The notes beneath the pieces were generated by a model. That model saw only the letters and a list, made by a program, of their open reading frames with translations. It did no database searches and was not told where the DNA came from. The position numbers and the translations under genes are program-made. A stretch of 64,000 nt of DNA from Hydrogenophaga sp. Lineage in GTDB: Bacteria; Pseudomonadota; Gammaproteobacteria; Burkholderiales; Burkholderiaceae_C. Location: the NCBI GenBank assembly GCA_020723845.1, contig DYIC01000001.1, positions 51,395 through 115,394 of the forward strand, given 5' to 3'. Shown here piece after piece: positions 32,656-40,354 of the stretch (position 1 is the first letter of the stretch; each line of letters begins with the position of its first letter).

Positions 32656-32784
32656 AACACGGTTGGTCGCAGCGGCGCAGCGGCGACGCCTCGGGGGTAC
32701 CGGGGCGTGACGCCGCAGGTCGCGGCCTGGGGCCCCCACAGCGCCCGCGGTGGTGGGGGTCGCACCACGTGCGCCACCGGGCGC

Positions 32785-34008
32785 ATGGAGCGTGCCGTGG
32801 ATGCCTATCTTCTGGACTGGGCCAACCTGTTGTTGCGTTGGTTGCATGTGGTGGCGGCCATCGCCTGGATCGGGTCGTCGTTTTACTTCGTGTTTCTGGA
32901 CAGCAGCCTGACGCCGCCCGCGGACGAGCGCCTGCGGCGAGATGGCGCGACCGGTGAGCTGTGGGCGGTGCACGGGGGAGGGTTTTATCACCCCGTCAAG
33001 TACGCCGTCGCGCCGCCCCGCCTGCCCGAGCGGTTGCACTGGTTTTACTGGGAGAGCTACACCACCTGGCTCAGCGGTTTTGCGTTGCTGGCGGTGTCGT
33101 ACCTGTGGCAGGCCGACATCTATCTGGTGGACGCGCGGGTGTACGCGTGGCCCGCGGCGTGGATGGCGGGCGCGGCGGCGATCGCGTTCCTGGTCGTGTT
33201 TTGGTTGCTGTACGACGCCATCTGCCGCTGGTGGGGTCAGACGCCTGGTGGCGACCGTAAAGTCGGGCTGGCGGTGGCGCTGCTGGTGGTGCTGGCCACG
33301 TGGCTGGCGTGCCAGTGGTTTGCGGGGCGTGCGGCGTTTTTGATCATTGGCGCGATGCTGGCCACCGCGATGAGCGCCAATGTGCTGTTTTGGATCATCC
33401 CCGGCCAGCGCAAGGTGGTGGCGGCGCTGCAGGCGGGGCAGACCCCGGATCCGCGCCATGGCCAGCGCGGCAAACAGCGCAGCGTGCACAACACCTACTT
33501 CACGCTGCCCGTGGTGCTGGCGATGCTGAGCAACCACTACGGCTTTCTGACCGGGCACGAGGCCAACTGGCTCGCCCTGCTGGGCTTGATGGCGGGGGGT
33601 GCGGCCATCCGGCAGTTTTTCGTGGCCCGACATGGGTACCGGCTTGGCCGCTGCGCGCACCCCTGGCCGTACGCAGCGGTGGGGGTGGCGCTGGTCGGGG
33701 CCGTCATCGTCGGGATACGCCCGGCGGCGCCGCAGGCGGGCGCGGCAGGCGACACGCCCGTCCCCCACGTAGAGCCGGCCCAGGTGTTGGCCGTGGTGCA
33801 GCAGCGCTGTGTGCCGTGTCACGGCGAGGCGCTGGCCTCCAAGGGCGTGCGGCTCGACAGCGCGCCGGCCCTGGCGCAGCACGCGCCAGCGGTGTATCAG
33901 CAGGTCGTGGTTACGCGGCAGATGCCGATCAATAACGCCACGGGTTTGACCGAGGCGGAGCGGGCGTTGATCGCCGCCTGGTGGCGCGCGGGGGCACCGG
34001 TTCCCTGA
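32785..34008 (+). CDS. puuD: Membrane-bound urate hydroxylase with C-terminal cytochrome c domain
   Basis: Converts urate to 5-hydroxyisourate and passes electrons to the respiratory chain through a heme c. The 407-residue protein has about eight transmembrane helices (starting LLLRWLHVVAAIAWIGSSFYFVFLD), conserved HGGGFYHPVKY and HWFYWESYTTWLSG segments, and a C-terminal cytochrome c domain with the heme motif CVPCH near residue 338 and a distal Met in RQMPINNATG. The start is the ATG of MERAVDAYLLDW; a GTG four codons later is possible. No other urate-pathway gene is adjacent. Confidence 0.9.
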   Translation: MERAVDAYLLDWANLLLRWLHVVAAIAWIGSSFYFVFLDSSLTPPADERLRRDGATGELWAVHGGGFYHPVKYAVAPPRLPERLHWFYWESYTTWLSGFALLAVSYLWQADIYLVDARVYAWPAAWMAGAAAIAFLVVFWLLYDAICRWWGQTPGGDRKVGLAVALLVVLATWLACQWFAGRAAFLIIGAMLATAMSANVLFWIIPGQRKVVAALQAGQTPDPRHGQRGKQRSVHNTYFTLPVVLAMLSNHYGFLTGHEANWLALLGLMAGGAAIRQFFVARHGYRLGRCAHPWPYAAVGVALVGAVIVGIRPAAPQAGAAGDTPVPHVEPAQVLAVVQQRCVPCHGEALASKGVRLDSAPALAQHAPAVYQQVVVTRQMPINNATGLTEAERALIAAWWRAGAPVP

Positions 34009-34017
34009 CCAGGCGGG

Positions 34018-35664
34018 TCAGTCCTCGACGGTCTTGACGTCCATCACGCGCAGGCTGACGCCGCCGGCCTGGCGCGCCGCCTTGTCGCCGATGACGGGCT
34101 TGTTGGCGTAGGACTGGTAGCGGGTGCGCAGCGGCTGAATCGCCTGTGCCAGTTCTGCTGCATCATCGATGCGCGCTTCGTAGCGCTTGAGCACGCCCCA
34201 GGCCGACTCGATGATTTTGGCGTTGCAGGTGACACGCCCCTGCTCGAGGAGTTCGAGCACCGCGGCGCGCGGGTTGCCCGCCAGGCTTTGGCGCATGGCG
34301 TGCTCGATGATGCTCAGCACCTCGGTGTGCAGACTGGACAGCCGCTCGGCGTACGGCGGGTGGGCGTTGGCGGCCTGAGCCAGCAGCGCCGTCAGCGCCT
34401 TGGAGGTACAAAAACGCCGTCCGAGCACGGTCAGTCGCTCTTGCACCTCGTCGATCTGGATCGCGCGCTGCGCCACATACGCCAGCAGCGTCGTCAGGTT
34501 GCACGCCGCCTCGAAGTCGAAGTCCTCGTCGGTGATCGTGGCCATCATGGCGCGCAACTGTTGCAGCACGCGGGCCACTTGGGCGTCGTGCAGCAGCAGC
34601 GCGATTTCGAGCACCTCGGCCAGTCGGCGCAGGCGCTGCGACTGCGGGTGGCGCTCCACCATGCGCAGGGCATCATCCCAGTAGCGCTGCAAGCCCTTGC
34701 GGTCGCCCGCCTCGAAACGCATGAATCCCAACAGCACCAGCGACTGAGCGTCGAACATCTTGGAGTCCAGCCCCAGTCGCACCGAGCGCGCCAGCAGCTC
34801 CTCGGCCAGCGCGGTTTGGCCGCAGTAATGCGCCAGCATGCCATGCCGCTGCAGCCGGCTGATGGAGGCGGGCGTCAGGTCGGTGGCCATTTTGTAGACG
34901 GCCAGTGCGGCGTCGAAGTTGCCCAGCTCGATCTGCGCCCGGCCCATGACGTCGTAGGCGTCGGCGTAACCGGGGTCGTCGTCGATCAGGCTTTGCAGGG
35001 TTTGGCTGGCGCGCTGTGGCTGTCCGGCTTCGAGCTGCGCGCGCGCCACACCCAGGCGTGCCCAGGGCAAGGCCTTGGCCTCGACGACGGCTTCGTACAG
35101 GCGCTGAGCCTCGTCGTAACGCTCCAGTCGCAGCAGCAGTTCGGCGCCGACCCGGGCCGCGTACAGCCAGTAGTCGGCGCGCTCGCGAAAGCGCTGCAGG
35201 CACAGCTCGGCCGCACGCTCGAAATCGCGTTTTTCGACCGCCTCGAAAATGTCTTTGAGCACCGCTTTGCGGTGGCGCGCCTGCCCGATGCGCTGGGCGA
35301 GTTGGTTGGCGGTGAAGGGCTTGAGCAGGTACGAGTCGAGGGCGGATTCGGCGGCTTCGGCCACTTTCGAGTACGACGCCTCGGACGTGACCATGATGAA
35401 GACGGTGGCAAAGGGCAGCAGCCCCGCACGACGAAGGTCATCGAGCAGGGCTTGCCCGGTGCCGCTGTCGTTGGGAAAGTGCTGCTCGCACACCACCACG
35501 TCGAAGGTGCGAAATTCGAGCTGGCGGCGCGCATCCGCGATGCGCGGGCTTTGCGCGACGGTGCGCGCGCCCATGTCGCGCAGCTGTGACACCAGGATCG
35601 AGCGCGAGGTGGGATTGCCGTCGATGACGAGTGCCGTGGCGCCGTAGAGATCCATCGGGCTCAT
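34018..35664 (-). CDS. Receiver-like/TPR protein 1 with Glu at the phosphoacceptor position
   Basis: A 548-residue protein with an N-terminal receiver-like domain (about 9-130) and a long helical TPR-type array (about 135-400: LYEAVVEAKALPWARLGVARAQLEAGQ, DDPGYADAYDVMGRAQIELGNF in part). In the receiver the usual phosphoacceptor Asp, four residues before the Pro of the FP motif, is Glu60 (VVVCEQHFP). The conserved Thr93 and Lys115 (SYLLKPF) remain, but only one Asp of the acidic pair (Asp15). It may be a fixed-state pseudo-receiver. It is paralogous to the adjacent upstream protein and overlaps its stop (ATGA); it is last in a pilB-pilC operon. Confidence 0.85.
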   Translation of the reverse strand: MSPMDLYGATALVIDGNPTSRSILVSQLRDMGARTVAQSPRIADARRQLEFRTFDVVVCEQHFPNDSGTGQALLDDLRRAGLLPFATVFIMVTSEASYSKVAEAAESALDSYLLKPFTANQLAQRIGQARHRKAVLKDIFEAVEKRDFERAAELCLQRFRERADYWLYAARVGAELLLRLERYDEAQRLYEAVVEAKALPWARLGVARAQLEAGQPQRASQTLQSLIDDDPGYADAYDVMGRAQIELGNFDAALAVYKMATDLTPASISRLQRHGMLAHYCGQTALAEELLARSVRLGLDSKMFDAQSLVLLGFMRFEAGDRKGLQRYWDDALRMVERHPQSQRLRRLAEVLEIALLLHDAQVARVLQQLRAMMATITDEDFDFEAACNLTTLLAYVAQRAIQIDEVQERLTVLGRRFCTSKALTALLAQAANAHPPYAERLSSLHTEVLSIIEHAMRQSLAGNPRAAVLELLEQGRVTCNAKIIESAWGVLKRYEARIDDAAELAQAIQPLRTRYQSYANKPVIGDKAARQAGGVSLRVMDVKTVED

Positions 35665-37358
35665 GCCGCCACATTATCGACCCGCACTGGCGCTGGCGCG
35701 CGATCCATCGGGCCCAGATGCACGCCACCCGAGGGGCGCAGGCGCGGGTCGCCCAGCGCCGGCCGGTTGCGGGCGGTGCCATAGCCCTGGCGCAGCGCCT
35801 GCACGCGCTGTTGCCAGCGTTCGGGGTTGGGCATGTCACGCTGGTAACGCTGCAGCACCAGCCAGGCCGACTCGACGGCGCGTGCGTTGAGCGTGTCTTG
35901 TGCGAGTGTGCACAGCTCGGCCAGTGCCAGCACCGGCTCGCCGTCGTGGGCGCGGCGCAGCGCTTGTTCGATGCGCTGCACCATCGTGGTCTCGCATTCG
36001 CGCAGGCGCTGCGCGTAGCGGGTGTGGTGGCTGGCGGCGCTGGCCAGCAGTTCGCCCATCGCCTTGGAGGTGGCAAAGCGCACCCCCAGCCGCTCCACCA
36101 GCGCGTCGTGTTCCGGCGTGTAGCCCTGGTGCGCCAGCGCCGCCAGCGCGGCGAGCAGGTTGCACGCCGCCTCCATATCGAAGTCGGGCGTGCCCACACC
36201 GGGCGCCATCGCGGTCAGCTCGGTCGCCACCCGTGTTCGGCGCTCCTCGTCCGGGGTGGGCAGGGCCTGCGCCAGCAGATCGACGAGGGCGACGAAACGC
36301 TGCAGCCGGTTGTCGTCGGGATAGCCGCGCGCGCGCTTGGCAAGCTCGGCCTGGTGGCGCTCCAGTTCGGCCGCGTCGTGCCGCTCGAACGCCGCGATGG
36401 CCAGCAACACCAGGCTCTCGGCGTCGAACATCTTGGAGTCCAGTCCCAGGTAGGTGGCGCGCTGCAGCAGCTCGACGGCCTTGTCGCGGTTGCCGAGAAA
36501 AAATGCCAGCATTCCCAGCCGCTGCTGGCGGCCGATCGCCATCGGCGTCGCCTCCAGCGCCCGCTGCAGGCTGTCGAGCGCATCGTCGAAGCGGCCCAGC
36601 TCCATCTGGGCGCGACCCAGCACGTCGTAGGCATCCGGGTAGTCGGGCGCGACTTCGATCAGTTGGCGCAGTGTCTCCAGCGCCGCCGAGGGCGCGCCGC
36701 TGTCGAGCTGGCAACGTGCCACCCCCAGCAACGCCCAAGGCTGGGCTTGCGCATCCCAGATCGACTGGAACAACGCCTGCGCCTGCCCGAAGCGCCCCAG
36801 CCGCAGCATGATCTCGGCCCCCCAGCGGGCCGCCGACAGCCACTGGGGGCCCTGGGTGGCAACGCGCTCCAGGCAGCGCTCGATCGCATCGTCGTAGCGG
36901 CGCTCCTCGAGCGCGCGGTAGATTTCCCACAGCGCCGCCTTGCGCCGCTGGGCCTGCTCGATGCGGTCGTACAGCGTGGCGGCCGAGTAGGGGCGCACGA
37001 TATAGCTGTCCACCGAGGATTCGGCGGCTTCGACCACCTTGAGATAGGTGGCCTCGTCGGTGATCAGGATGAACACGGTGCCATACGGCAGCAGGCCCGA
37101 GCGGCGCAGATCGTCGAGCAGCTCCTGTCCGGAGCCACCGCGCGGGAAGGTGTCGGCGCACACCACCAGGTCGAACGGGTGGCGCTCGATTTCGCGCCGC
37201 GCATCGGCAATGCGCCCGGTCTGGCTGATGGAGGTGAAGCCAAAGCTGCGCAGCTGGCCCGCCAGCGTCATGCGCGTGGTCGGGTTGGCATCGACGACCA
37301 GTGCCGCGTTGCGCCGCAGGTCTGCCGGCAGGGGGGCGCCGGATCCGGCTGCGGACAT
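35661..37358 (-). CDS. Receiver-like/TPR protein 2 with Ala at the phosphoacceptor position
   Basis: A 565-residue paralogue of the next gene: receiver-like domain (about 18-138) plus TPR-type repeats (about 140-420) and a shared LGLDSKMFDA-ESLVLL stretch. The phosphoacceptor position is Ala68 (VVCADTFP), with an Asp one residue later; the conserved Lys is Arg122 (SYIVRPY), while Thr100 is kept. Thus normal phosphotransfer chemistry is doubtful. The start follows the pilC stop by two bases, so co-translation with the pilus platform protein is likely. Function unknown; a scaffold or pilus regulator is an inference from context. Confidence 0.85.
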   Translation of the reverse strand: MSAAGSGAPLPADLRRNAALVVDANPTTRMTLAGQLRSFGFTSISQTGRIADARREIERHPFDLVVCADTFPRGGSGQELLDDLRRSGLLPYGTVFILITDEATYLKVVEAAESSVDSYIVRPYSAATLYDRIEQAQRRKAALWEIYRALEERRYDDAIERCLERVATQGPQWLSAARWGAEIMLRLGRFGQAQALFQSIWDAQAQPWALLGVARCQLDSGAPSAALETLRQLIEVAPDYPDAYDVLGRAQMELGRFDDALDSLQRALEATPMAIGRQQRLGMLAFFLGNRDKAVELLQRATYLGLDSKMFDAESLVLLAIAAFERHDAAELERHQAELAKRARGYPDDNRLQRFVALVDLLAQALPTPDEERRTRVATELTAMAPGVGTPDFDMEAACNLLAALAALAHQGYTPEHDALVERLGVRFATSKAMGELLASAASHHTRYAQRLRECETTMVQRIEQALRRAHDGEPVLALAELCTLAQDTLNARAVESAWLVLQRYQRDMPNPERWQQRVQALRQGYGTARNRPALGDPRLRPSGGVHLGPMDRAPAPVRVDNVAA

Positions 37359-37360
37359 GG

Positions 37361-38575
37361 TCAGACCACCGCGCCCAGCTTGAAGATCGGCAGGTACATC
37401 GCGACCACGATGCCGCCGATGATGGTGCCCAGAATGACGATGATGACGGGCTCCATGAGGCTCGACAGGCCAGCGACCATGTCATCGACTTCCTGCTCGT
37501 AAAAGTCGGCCGCCTTGCCCAGCATGTGGTCCAGCGAGCCCGACTCCTCGCCGATGGCGCACATTTGCAGCACCATCGAGGGGAAGATGCCAGCGTTGGT
37601 CATGGCCTGCGTCAGCGAGGTGCCGGTGGCGACCTCTTGCTGGATCTTGGCGGTGGCATCGGCATACACCGAATTGCCGGCGGCGCCGCCCACCGAATCG
37701 AGCGCCTCGACCAGCGGCACGCCGGCGGCGAACATCGTGGACAGCGTGCGCGTCCAGCGCGCGACGACGGATTTTTCGATCAGCTGGCCGAAGATGGGCA
37801 CGCGCAACAGCAGCCGGTCCATGAAACGCTGAACCCGTTCGTCGCGCTTCCAGGCCTGGAAGAAGAAGTACAACCCGCCACCCAGTGCCCCGAAGATGAG
37901 CCACCAGTACGCGACGAAAAATTCGCTGATCGCGATCACCGCCAGCGTCGGTGCCGGCAGATCGGCGCCGAAGGAGGTGAACACCTCCTTGAACGCCGGT
38001 ACCACGAAGATCATGATCACCGACACGACGATGAAGGCCACCACCATGACCGCGGTCGGGTACATCAGGGCGGACTTGACCTTGCTCTTGATCGCCTCGG
38101 TCTTTTCCAGGTACGTCGACAGCCGATCCAGGATATCTTCCAGGATCCCGGCCGCCTCGCCCGCTTCGACCAGGTTGCAATAGAGCGAGTTGAAGTACGC
38201 CGGGTGTTTGCGAAACGCCGCGCTGAGTGAGGTGCCGGTCTCGACGTCAGAGCGAATGTCGTACAGCAGTCGGGCCACGCTCGGGTTGGGGTTGCCGCGT
38301 CCGACGATGTCGAAGGCCTGCAACAGTGGCACGCCCGCCTTCATCATGGTGGCGAGCTGGCGTGTGAAGATGGCGATGTCCTTGGGGCGGATGCGCTTGG
38401 CCGAGGCGAGCCGGCGCTTCTTGACCTTTTGCACCAGGATGCCCTGGCGCCGCAGTTGCGCCTGCACCTGGGCCTCGCCGGCCGCGCGCAGCTCGCCCTT
38501 GACCGTCTTGCCGTTGCGGTCCTTGCCTTCCCACTCGTAGACGTATTCTTTGATGGTCGGGGCTGTCGTGGCCAT
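37361..38575 (-). CDS. pilC: Type IV pilus inner-membrane platform protein PilC
   Basis: Platform on which the pilus motor acts. The 404-residue protein has two T2SSF repeats (about 70-193 and 273-395): FTRQLATMMKAGVPLLQAFDIV versus WTRTLSTMFAAGVPLVEALDSVGG (in part), and three transmembrane segments. The N-terminal YVYEWEGKDRNGKTVKGEL is the family leader. It follows pilB by 51 bp. In many relatives pilD and coaE come next; here two receiver-like/TPR genes do. Confidence 0.95.
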   Translation of the reverse strand: MATTAPTIKEYVYEWEGKDRNGKTVKGELRAAGEAQVQAQLRRQGILVQKVKKRRLASAKRIRPKDIAIFTRQLATMMKAGVPLLQAFDIVGRGNPNPSVARLLYDIRSDVETGTSLSAAFRKHPAYFNSLYCNLVEAGEAAGILEDILDRLSTYLEKTEAIKSKVKSALMYPTAVMVVAFIVVSVIMIFVVPAFKEVFTSFGADLPAPTLAVIAISEFFVAYWWLIFGALGGGLYFFFQAWKRDERVQRFMDRLLLRVPIFGQLIEKSVVARWTRTLSTMFAAGVPLVEALDSVGGAAGNSVYADATAKIQQEVATGTSLTQAMTNAGIFPSMVLQMCAIGEESGSLDHMLGKAADFYEQEVDDMVAGLSSLMEPVIIVILGTIIGGIVVAMYLPIFKLGAVV

Positions 38576-38626: not shown

Positions 38627-40354
38627 TCAGTCGTTGGTCACCGCCAGAACCTCCTCCAGTGACGTGATGCCCATCTTAACCTTGCGCAGCCCACTTTCGC
38701 GCAGGGTGCGCACGCCTTCGGCGCGTGCCTGGGCGGCAATCTCCAGCGCGCTGGCGCCGCGCAGGATCAGCTGCTGGATGGCTTCGGTCACGGGCATGAC
38801 CTGGTAGATGCCGACCCGGCCCTTGTAGCCTTCGTGGCAGGCCGGGCAGCCCACGGGGCGGTACGGTTGCCATTGGCCGTCCAGGTCCTCGGGCCGAAAG
38901 CCCGCGTCCAGCAGCGCACGCTCGGGAATGTCATGGTGCGGCACTTTGCACTTGGGGCACAACCGCCGCGCGAGGCGCTGCGCCGTGATCAGGTTGATGC
39001 TGGAGGCGATGTTGAACGGCGCCACCCCCATGTTGAGCAAGCGCGTGAGGGTGGAGGGCGCATCGTTGGTGTGCAGCGTGGATAACACCAGGTGGCCGGT
39101 CTGCGCCGCCTTGATCGCGATGTCGGCGGTTTCCAGGTCACGAATCTCGCCCACCATGATGATGTCGGGGTCCTGACGCAGAAACGCCCGCAGCGCAGCG
39201 GCAAAGGTCAGCCCCGCCTTTTCGTTGACGTTGACCTGGTTGACGCCCGGCAGGTTGATCTCGGCCGGGTCCTCGGCCGTGGAGATGTTGACCCCGGGCT
39301 GATTGAGCAGATTCAGGCAGGTGTAGAGCGAGACGGTCTTGCCCGACCCCGTGGGGCCGGTGACGAGCACCATGCCATAGGGCCGGTTGATGGCTTCCAG
39401 CAGCTTGGCCTTTTCGTCGGGTTCGTAGCCCAGCGCGTCGATACCCATCTGGGCGCTGCTCGGATCCAGGATGCGGATCACCACTTTCTCGCCGAACAGC
39501 GTGGGCAGGGTGCTGACGCGAAAGTCGATCACCTTGTCGGGGCCGACCTTGAGCTTCATGCGCCCGTCCTGCGGCACGCGCTTTTCGGCAATGTCGAGCT
39601 TGGAGATGACCTTGATGCGCGACGCGAGCTTGTCCTTGATCGCCACCGGGGGAGAGGCGACCTCGCGCAGCTCGCCGTCGATGCGAAAACGCACGCGGTA
39701 CTGGTGTTCGTAGGGCTCGAAATGCAGGTCCGAGGCACGCATCGTGTAGGCGTCGAGCAGCATTTTTTGCAAAAACCGCACGATGGGCGCGTCCTCCACC
39801 TCGGCCGACACCTTGTCGGCGGGCTCGTCCGAGGTCATTTCGATACCGTCGGCCGCGAAGTCGAACGTCTGGCCGACGATCTGGTCGATCACCTGCTGGG
39901 CACTCGCGGTGAAGGATTCGACCAGCTTGCCCAGCTTGTCGACCTCTGCGATGATCCAGTCGACGCTGAGCTGGGTTTCGAACTTGATTTTTTCTGCCGC
40001 CTGCAAGTCCGACGGATCCGCCGTGGCCACCGACAGCCGGTTACCGCGCCGCCCCAGGGGCACGACGCGGTACTGCTGGCAGGTTTTGGGGTCGAGCAAT
40101 CCGTGGGGCAGGCGCTGCGGGTCGACGGCGTCGAGGTCGATCAGCGGCGCGGCAAAAGCCACCGACATCACGTGCGCCAAGTCACGCGGCGACACCGACT
40201 GGCTGCCGATGAGTTCGGTGATGAAGCCGGTCTGGCGCGCCTGGGCCTGGGCGTAGAGTGTCTCGGCCTGGCGCTGCGTGAGCACGCCCGCGCCGATCAG
40301 GGCGCGCGCCAGCCCCGGTAGGGCCATCGTGGCGACGCTGTCGTCATCGGTCAT
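38627..40354 (-). CDS. pilB: Type IV pilus assembly ATPase PilB
   Basis: Hexameric extension motor of type IV pili. The 575-residue protein has an N-terminal MshEN-type domain, Walker [13 protein letters not shown], an Asp box (SDLHFEPYE), Walker B region [16 protein letters not shown], the His box STLHTND, and a C-terminal tetracysteine zinc site (CPKC and [10 protein letters not shown]). It is divergent from accB. The pilus operon here is pilB-pilC plus two receiver-like/TPR genes; no pilin or prepilin peptidase is in the window. Confidence 0.96.

Follow-up and report, generated by a model that had tools for sequence, protein, structure and literature searches.

A tandem pair of aspartate-less REC-TPR proteins encoded behind pilB and pilC in Tepidimonas: a branch of the VieB-like regulators

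The stretch of DNA analysed here (the window) comprises 64,000 nucleotides of contig DYIC01000001.1 (positions 51,395 to 115,394 of the forward strand; GenBank assembly GCA_020723845.1). The assembly, of 2.27 Mb in 118 contigs, is deposited as Hydrogenophaga sp. and is treated below together with its Tepidimonas congeners. Tepidimonas is a hot-water bacterium. On the minus strand, the window carries pilB, pilC and two related genes, RT2 and RT1, in this order; the products of the latter two join an N-terminal receiver domain to an array of tetratricopeptide repeats (TPRs), an architecture abbreviated below as REC-TPR. The first gene of the operon, pilB (38627..40354), encodes the type IVa pilus extension ATPase (TIGR02538, 822.8 bits; cut-off 675.65), and pilC (37361..38575) encodes the pilus inner-membrane platform protein of the T2SSF family (PF00482, 227.7 bits; cut-off 25.2). 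The stop codon of pilC is separated by 2 bp from the ATG of RT2 (35661..37358, 565 amino acids), the stop of which shares the letters ATGA with the start of RT1 (34018..35664, 548 amino acids), giving a 4-bp overlap. A convergent gene at 32707-34008, with a putative PuuD-like product, closes the arrangement. An earlier sequence-only reading of the locus had described two adjacent, related REC-TPR proteins behind pilC, and the open reading frames, Pfam matches and spacing bear it out. RT1 and RT2 are identical in 47% of 546 aligned columns (E 2e-149), so that their likeness is not due to chance.

The Pfam receiver family PF00072 is matched with 50.2 and 37.9 bits in the two proteins (curated cut-off 30.2), and TPR families, TPR_19 among others, are found in both. 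The remaining Pfam matches belong to TPR-like or helical families, nearly all of them under the cut-off, and include no helix-turn-helix or enzyme domain. The AlphaFold models of RT1 and RT2 were built from alignments of 46 and 41 sequences and reached mean pLDDT values of 86.0 and 86.9, respectively; the region of helix 4 is poorly modelled (pLDDT below 50 at residues 97-107 of RT1 and 105-115 of RT2). In these models, the receiver occupies approximately residues 10-135 of RT1 and 18-142 of RT2, and the TPR part forms a helical array at approximately 137-515 and 144-526. Residues 2-135 of the RT1 model are superimposed on CheY with Z 19.5 and rmsd 2.2 over 129 aligned residues. Among the 60 PDB sequence matches listed of 108, all were separate CheY or TPR/repeat chains, and the Foldseek matches listed were mostly eukaryotic or designed TPR proteins.

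Alignment with CheY shows that the active site of both receivers is altered. At CheY positions 12, 13, 57, 87, 106 and 109, CheY has D, D, D, T, Y and K, RT1 has D, G, E, T, Y and K, and RT2 has D, A, A, T, Y and R. The phosphoacceptor position, D57 in CheY, is thus Glu60 in RT1 (codon 35485..35487, minus strand, as are the other codons given here) and Ala68 in RT2 (37155..37157), as the sequence-only reading had proposed; the models agree, strand beta-3 ending at Glu60 in RT1 (residues 56-60) and at Ala68 in RT2 (64-68). The Lys of the switch, CheY K109, is retained as Lys115 in RT1 (35320..35322) and replaced by Arg122 in RT2 (36993..36995), again as proposed. The second acid of the pocket is gone from both proteins, CheY D13 being Gly16 in RT1 and Ala24 in RT2. 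Instead of the full canonical acidic pocket (DD, D, T, K), RT1 has D-G, E, T, K and RT2 has D-A, A, T, R; both proteins have the receiver fold without the phosphoacceptor Asp, which defines aspartate-less receivers or pseudo-receivers. It was considered whether Asp69 of RT2 could serve as the phosphosite in place of Ala68, and this candidate was ruled out: since beta-3 ends at Ala68, Asp69 lies just outside the strand, and it is Gly in the congener L044. Phosphorylation at the normal site has very probably been lost in both RT1 and RT2.

The active-site count in Tepidimonas covers ten RT1 and ten RT2 rows, the copies L039-L048, including L047 (from genome G066), being dropped. The phosphoacceptor position is Glu in all ten RT1 rows; in RT2, it is Gly in six, Ser in three and Ala in one. 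At the switch-Lys position, all ten RT1 rows have Lys and all ten RT2 rows have Arg. The residues corresponding to T87 and Y106 are kept in all 20 rows, the first pocket acid is Asp (once Glu, once unreadable), and the second acid is lost in both proteins throughout. The sequence-only reading had asked whether Glu and Ala are conserved: Glu is, and in RT2 it is the lack of an acid, not Ala itself. Fixation of the Glu and acid-less states (10/10 and 10/10) in the genus means that they are no accident of one strain. The median pairwise ratio of nonsynonymous to synonymous substitution rates (dN/dS; 36 pairs) was 0.19 for RT1, 0.28 for RT2 and 0.10 for pilC; in both RT genes, it was lower in the receiver (0.13 in RT1, 0.17 in RT2) than in the TPR part (0.21 and 0.31, respectively). 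Judged from these ratios, both genes are under purifying selection, stronger in the receiver part than in the TPR part. Low dN/dS, lowest in the receiver, indicates that the receivers are being maintained and are not decaying.

The order pilB-pilC-RT2-RT1 is identical in all eight of the fetched Tepidimonas loci that reach pilC. In all nine sequences (the window and these eight), an ATG or GTG that could serve as the start of RT2 is located at -4 or +2 relative to the pilC stop, and in eight of the nine RT1 could begin in a 4-bp overlap with RT2. The locus of the congener G005 is divided between contigs: pilB and the beginning of RT2 are on one, and the remainder of RT2 together with RT1 is on the other; the congener G004 (73% complete) gave only a weak match. 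The sequence-only reading had also held that pilD-coaE occupies this place in many relatives. This proved correct: of 14 fetched stretches of relatives containing pilB and pilC, 9 have the P-loop motif of CoaE shortly after pilC, and two of the other five (L205 and L211) reach the contig end just past pilC, which fits the usual order pilB-pilC-pilD-coaE. In the window genome, pilD and coaE are neighbours on a different contig (C36; L216:5263-7994), away from pilBC.

Relatives of the pair were searched for in 149 genomes, 89 of which belong to the same family or the same genus. Of the 89, 37 match RT2 with an E of 1e-80 or lower, and further full-length, more distant REC-TPR relatives were found in other families of the order. 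Proteins of Vibrio, Photobacterium and Aeromonas are matched by the family profile with 118-180 bits, mainly in the receiver and the first repeats. A REC-TPR-like gene of Vibrio campbellii (L120:6001-7646) is present in two frames, of 215 and 329 amino acids. The loci in named records are the 80 highest-ranking among 411 RT1 matches; 71 of them lie outside Tepidimonas, and two were removed before alignment. The phosphoacceptor position in the remaining 69 rows is Glu in 68 and Asp in one (Macromonas bipunctata), a share which is biased to close kin by this selection.

The ancestry of the two states was studied using an alignment of 180 rows and CheY, from which duplicates with the same core were removed (some genomes are still present twice), and a tree of 104 rows, from which short and near-identical rows and the duplicate Tepidimonas copies were left out; the tree was built by a quick method and its deep forks are weak. 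RT2 of Tepidimonas forms a clade with sequences of G066 and G082 (support 100), and RT1 groups with a Serpentinimonas record (support 80). Because of these two groupings, the duplication seems to be older than the genus. At least eight changes between Asp and non-Asp are required on the tree. A clade of 47 rows (support 98) contains 33 Glu rows, 12 of the RT2 type, one with Ala and one with Asp, the latter being Macromonas; it is enclosed in a clade of 59 rows (support 97), in which the second acid is lost wherever the position is readable, whether or not Asp is kept. Homologues bearing a normal Asp exist in the family, which goes in part against the sequence-only reading, since it had named orthologues of this kind as a ground for refutation; within Tepidimonas, the Asp-less states are fixed. 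The Macromonas bipunctata protein (L184:9001-10632) has Asp at the phosphosite inside the Glu clade and lacks the second acid. It joins the RT2 clade (support 94), and its Asp is accordingly either a reversal or the mark of a misplaced row.

By this comparison, Asp appears to be ancestral and Glu derived. All 111 non-Asp rows of Burkholderiales are without an acid at CheY position 13 (one is a gap, and some genomes are counted twice), and the Burkholderiales rows fit a putative sequence of events in which the second acid was lost first. This order fails for the other orders of the class. There, L262, L263, L264, L266 and L268 have Ser, Gly or Ala at the phosphosite, and four of these five Asp-less rows keep the second acid; the loss of Asp thus took a different order of steps in them. 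The Comamonadaceae branch looks like a kinase-free orphan in which Asp was replaced by Glu, with the duplication following.

The kinase in question is found next to the REC-TPR gene in the more distant families, where a small gene of 203-279 codons adjoins it (for example, L084:7748-8413, L101:8388-9080 and L256:150-866). The two genes share a strand in all 15 clustered cases and overlap by 4 bp in eight. An HATPase_c domain was present in the three small proteins tested, and the alignment of 13 showed an HDxKN box, the H, K and N of which are invariant, as well as conserved N, DxG and GLG boxes. The small gene is, by prediction from these boxes, a histidine kinase without a sensor part. Its profile scored above 110 bits in 24 of the 149 relatives, in all 24 within 1 kb of a REC-TPR match; 12 of the 24 had been absent from profile building, and these likewise lay beside REC-TPR in 12 of 12 cases. 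After a gap, the next match was at 89 bits, and the matches below the gap were in frames of at least 441 codons. The profile gave no match at 1e-20 in the window genome and ten congeners, and a single-sequence search of the window genome gave three weak matches, all in longer frames. The partners of this kinase are mostly of about 540-560 amino acids, match the family profile, and have the Asp of the phosphosite and the Lys intact.

In the Burkholderiales set, the kinase neighbour accompanies 22 of 48 Asp rows and none of the 115 Asp-less ones; of 19 rows taken from other orders of the class, it accompanies 6 of the 14 with Asp and none of the 5 without. When contig context was required, which leaves out 18 rows, 19 Asp rows had the kinase and 26 did not, vs 0 and 115 among the non-Asp rows (p 1e-12). 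The rows of these counts are related and some genomes appear twice; independent pairs offered too few informative events for the test to reach significance (median p 1), so that, strong as the counts are, a statistical proof that loss of Asp accompanies loss of the kinase had to be given up. In G042 (L068:7381-11277), a REC-TPR gene, the kinase and a second REC-TPR gene stand in tandem, the copy of the first type being intact and the Comamonadaceae-type copy coming last. The latter has kept Asp and lost the second acid, and is the one exception seen with a kinase beside that branch; we read this tandem as a stage preceding the loss of the kinase. A kinase-coupled REC-TPR ancestor of RT1 and RT2 appears likely.

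The reading which we tentatively put forward, though it falls a little short of an even chance, is that RT1 and RT2 are phosphorylation-independent adaptors derived from kinase-coupled VieB-like REC-TPR regulators and recruited to the pilus motor. The receiver of the ancestral type would have been phosphorylated, probably by the adjoining sensorless kinase, and the binding of the TPR superhelix would have changed as a result. The Comamonadaceae branch, with no adjoining kinase, would then have lost the second metal-binding Asp, after which the acceptor became Glu, a presumed phosphate mimic, the Thr, Tyr and Lys of the switch being kept. RT1 would have stayed fixed with Glu, and the duplicate RT2 would have lost the acidic side chain, its Lys becoming Arg. 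Since the genes behind pilB-pilC overlap or nearly touch, RT1 and RT2 are probably made in step with the PilB extension ATPase and the PilC platform, presumably by co-translation. Their TPR arrays may contact PilB, PilC or some other pilus-base partner and so set the amount of pilus extension, in which case control would be exerted by amount, by the RT1:RT2 ratio and by location instead of by phosphate. A direct role of the pair at the Tepidimonas pilus is possible, if somewhat less than probable.

Several observations weigh against the recruitment to the pilus. No pilC was found near the gene outside Tepidimonas in the 164 stretches searched: PilC stood near a REC-TPR gene in 16 of them, all from Tepidimonas (eight genomes, each held twice). 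The pilBC link supposed in the sequence-only reading is thus conserved within Tepidimonas and goes no further in this set, and dedication of the whole REC-TPR family to pili was rejected on this count. Part of the family is located behind grpE-dnaK-dnaJ, and other members stand beside aspS and elsewhere (the products being named from sequences). PilB exceeded the cut-off in 35 of the 37 same-family genomes with the gene vs 43 of the 52 without it, so that carriage of the gene shows no significant association with PilB (Fisher p 0.11). The two gene-bearing genomes without PilB over the cut-off were G050 (80% complete) and G024 (100% complete), the latter being Curvibacter delicatus by its matching record and carrying a gene of the Glu type (L053). 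PilB-like matches on L109, L110 and L175 were weak (32-37% identity, no PilC, about 2.8, 5.4 and 7.5 kb from REC-TPR) and were not counted.

These observations favour another explanation, in which the pair has a non-pilus function, the same as that of its relatives, and landed behind pilBC when pilD-coaE moved, the operon serving only as a promoter. The restriction of the pilBC link to Tepidimonas, the locations behind dnaJ, beside aspS and elsewhere, and the presence of the gene in Curvibacter delicatus are all in line with it, as is the RT2-type gene kept away from pilBC in G066 and G082. Yet the window shares its gene order and tight spacing with every one of the eight congener loci reaching pilC, which is beyond what a chance landing would require, though expression alone could hold it. 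On balance, the explanation by a non-pilus function is rather unlikely. The membrane-protein-like gene at 32707-34008 that converges on RT1 has a relative adjoining the RT gene in G050 and G066, and an older location of the RT genes may thus be marked by it.

Within the adaptor reading, RT1 and RT2 could be pictured more specifically as frozen opposite forms of a duplicated switch, one with Glu, the other acid-less with Arg, which compete for one site on PilB or PilC, pilus output being set by their ratio; this version is unlikely. The retention of Lys together with Glu, which extends from RT1 to 84 of 86 other Glu rows, and its replacement by Arg in RT2 are consistent with one protein being 'on' and the other 'off'. 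A further point against the proposed course of events is the Phe at Lys+2 in all ten RT1 rows, a letter reported to favour inactive CheY; it speaks against a receiver strongly biased to the 'on' state. The labels themselves may be reversed if VieB of Vibrio cholerae is taken as the precedent. VieB, in which a receiver is joined to a TPR domain, acts as an inhibitor of its kinase VieS, and the accessible part of its description states that the D62A form inhibits like the wild type, whereas D62E inhibits less and still binds (PMC4352251); of the two, the Ala form would then be active as an inhibitor, and the Glu form less so.

The same behaviour of VieB supports a second alternative, in which the pair binds a sensor or hybrid kinase, such as a ChpA-like protein or a c-di-GMP regulator, and blocks its phosphorelay, pili being affected indirectly. 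This alternative, in which the acid-less RT2 would be a constitutive inhibitor and the Glu-bearing RT1 a weaker competing binder, is improbable. In its favour, a REC-TPR gene of G214, a genome from another order, has as its neighbours a REC-EAL gene and, in divergent orientation, a hybrid kinase with Hpt, and the window genome has an open frame of 1885 codons with two receiver matches, which we take, as a provisional label, to be ChpA. However, the neighbouring genes in the window, inspected by eye and without a search for EAL, include none recognisable as a kinase or EAL gene, and the profile of the small kinase had no match on the Tepidimonas stretches, other kinase types not being searched for beside the pair. 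The G214 locus as such (L250:4218-11310) is VieSAB-like, the hybrid kinase having SBP_bac_3, HisKA, HATPase, REC and Hpt domains.

Very improbable is the idea that the receivers are still regulated in some other way, by Glu methylation in RT1 or by phosphorylation at Asp69 or the retained N-terminal Asp in RT2. The first acid, Thr, Tyr and, in RT1, Lys are indeed retained in Tepidimonas, and modification of Glu has been discussed for Asp-less receivers (PMC4395418, in its accessible part). But Asp69 is excluded by its place past beta-3 and by the Gly of L044, the second pocket acid is lost in both proteins, and RT2 has Arg in place of Lys.

The family offers a natural series that runs from the kinase-coupled Asp form through the orphan with Asp but no second acid and the Glu form spread across many genera to the acid-less duplicate. 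Because this series leads from a switch to a fixed form, the question of whether Glu means 'on' becomes testable with natural proteins, beyond mutants. The sensorless kinase, found only beside REC-TPR in the 149 genomes, possibly forms an undescribed two-component pair with it in Burkholderiales and other orders. The open-licence literature yielded nothing under 'REC-TPR', under a combination of PilB and Comamonadaceae, or under a sensorless kinase. The sole mention of pili in PMC5552955, a paper in which Tepidimonas is named, is a reference title on Acidovorax, and the word 'receiver' is absent from the accessible text of PMC12282931, on TPR proteins and c-di-GMP in Vibrio vulnificus.

As a protein type, the pair is already known, both members belonging to a branch of the VieB-like (REC-TPR) regulators. 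'VieB-like' is a recognised class of response regulators with this architecture (PMC2222644, as far as its accessible text goes), so that the undescribed system suspected in the sequence-only reading does not hold as a protein type; the locus is more ordinary than hoped, and the pair is real and conserved. With VieB and its class, RT1 and RT2 share the N-terminal receiver and the C-terminal TPR output, and the D62A and D62E laboratory mutants of VieB resemble the natural states of RT2 (Ala, Gly or Ser) and RT1 (Glu). By its description, beside which RT1 and RT2 are set here, VieB has Asp and is encoded in the vieSAB operon, whereas RT1 and RT2 lack Asp and the second acid and form a tandem pair behind pilBC. 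The phosphorylatable Asp, which changes activity in VieB according to the mutants, is replaced in them by Glu60 and Ala68. The pairs of small kinase and REC-TPR share the size and the family profile of RT1 and RT2, but they are kinase-coupled and Asp-bearing, and the Burkholderiales stretches, to which the search for pilBC was confined, show no pilC in the vicinity of these pairs.

Among aspartate-less receivers, Glu is the commonest letter at the Asp site and Arg is common at the Lys site, as in RT1 and RT2, and a swap at the Asp position does not always alter activity (PMC4395418 and PMC12632262, accessible parts). A 2025 review calls the switching of bacterial pseudo-receivers a mystery (PMC12632262). 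The terms 'TPR' and 'tetratricopeptide' occur 0 times in the main text of either paper, and their accessible parts contain no mention of tandem proteins in two different fixed states encoded within a pilus operon. The nearest functional parallel is found in Myxococcus, where the pseudo-receiver protein FrzS, the phosphosite of which is Ala (PMC4395418), promotes recruitment of the TPR protein SgmX, leading to polar localisation of PilB and pilus formation (PMC11580455). As far as the available descriptions go, VieB on the one hand and FrzS with SgmX on the other may serve as precedents for the adaptor reading. Pseudo-receiver and TPR parts are common to FrzS with SgmX and to RT1 with RT2, acting on PilB localisation in Myxococcus and linked to PilB by gene order alone in RT1 and RT2. 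The likeness is one of description, and the arrangement differs: in Myxococcus, the pseudo-receiver is carried by a coiled-coil protein and the TPRs (14 repeats) by SgmX, under the GTPase MglA, while RT1 and RT2 have both parts in one chain, twice. If the pilus link is functional, the pair would represent a second use, besides FrzS/SgmX, of pseudo-receivers and TPRs on the pilus extension motor.

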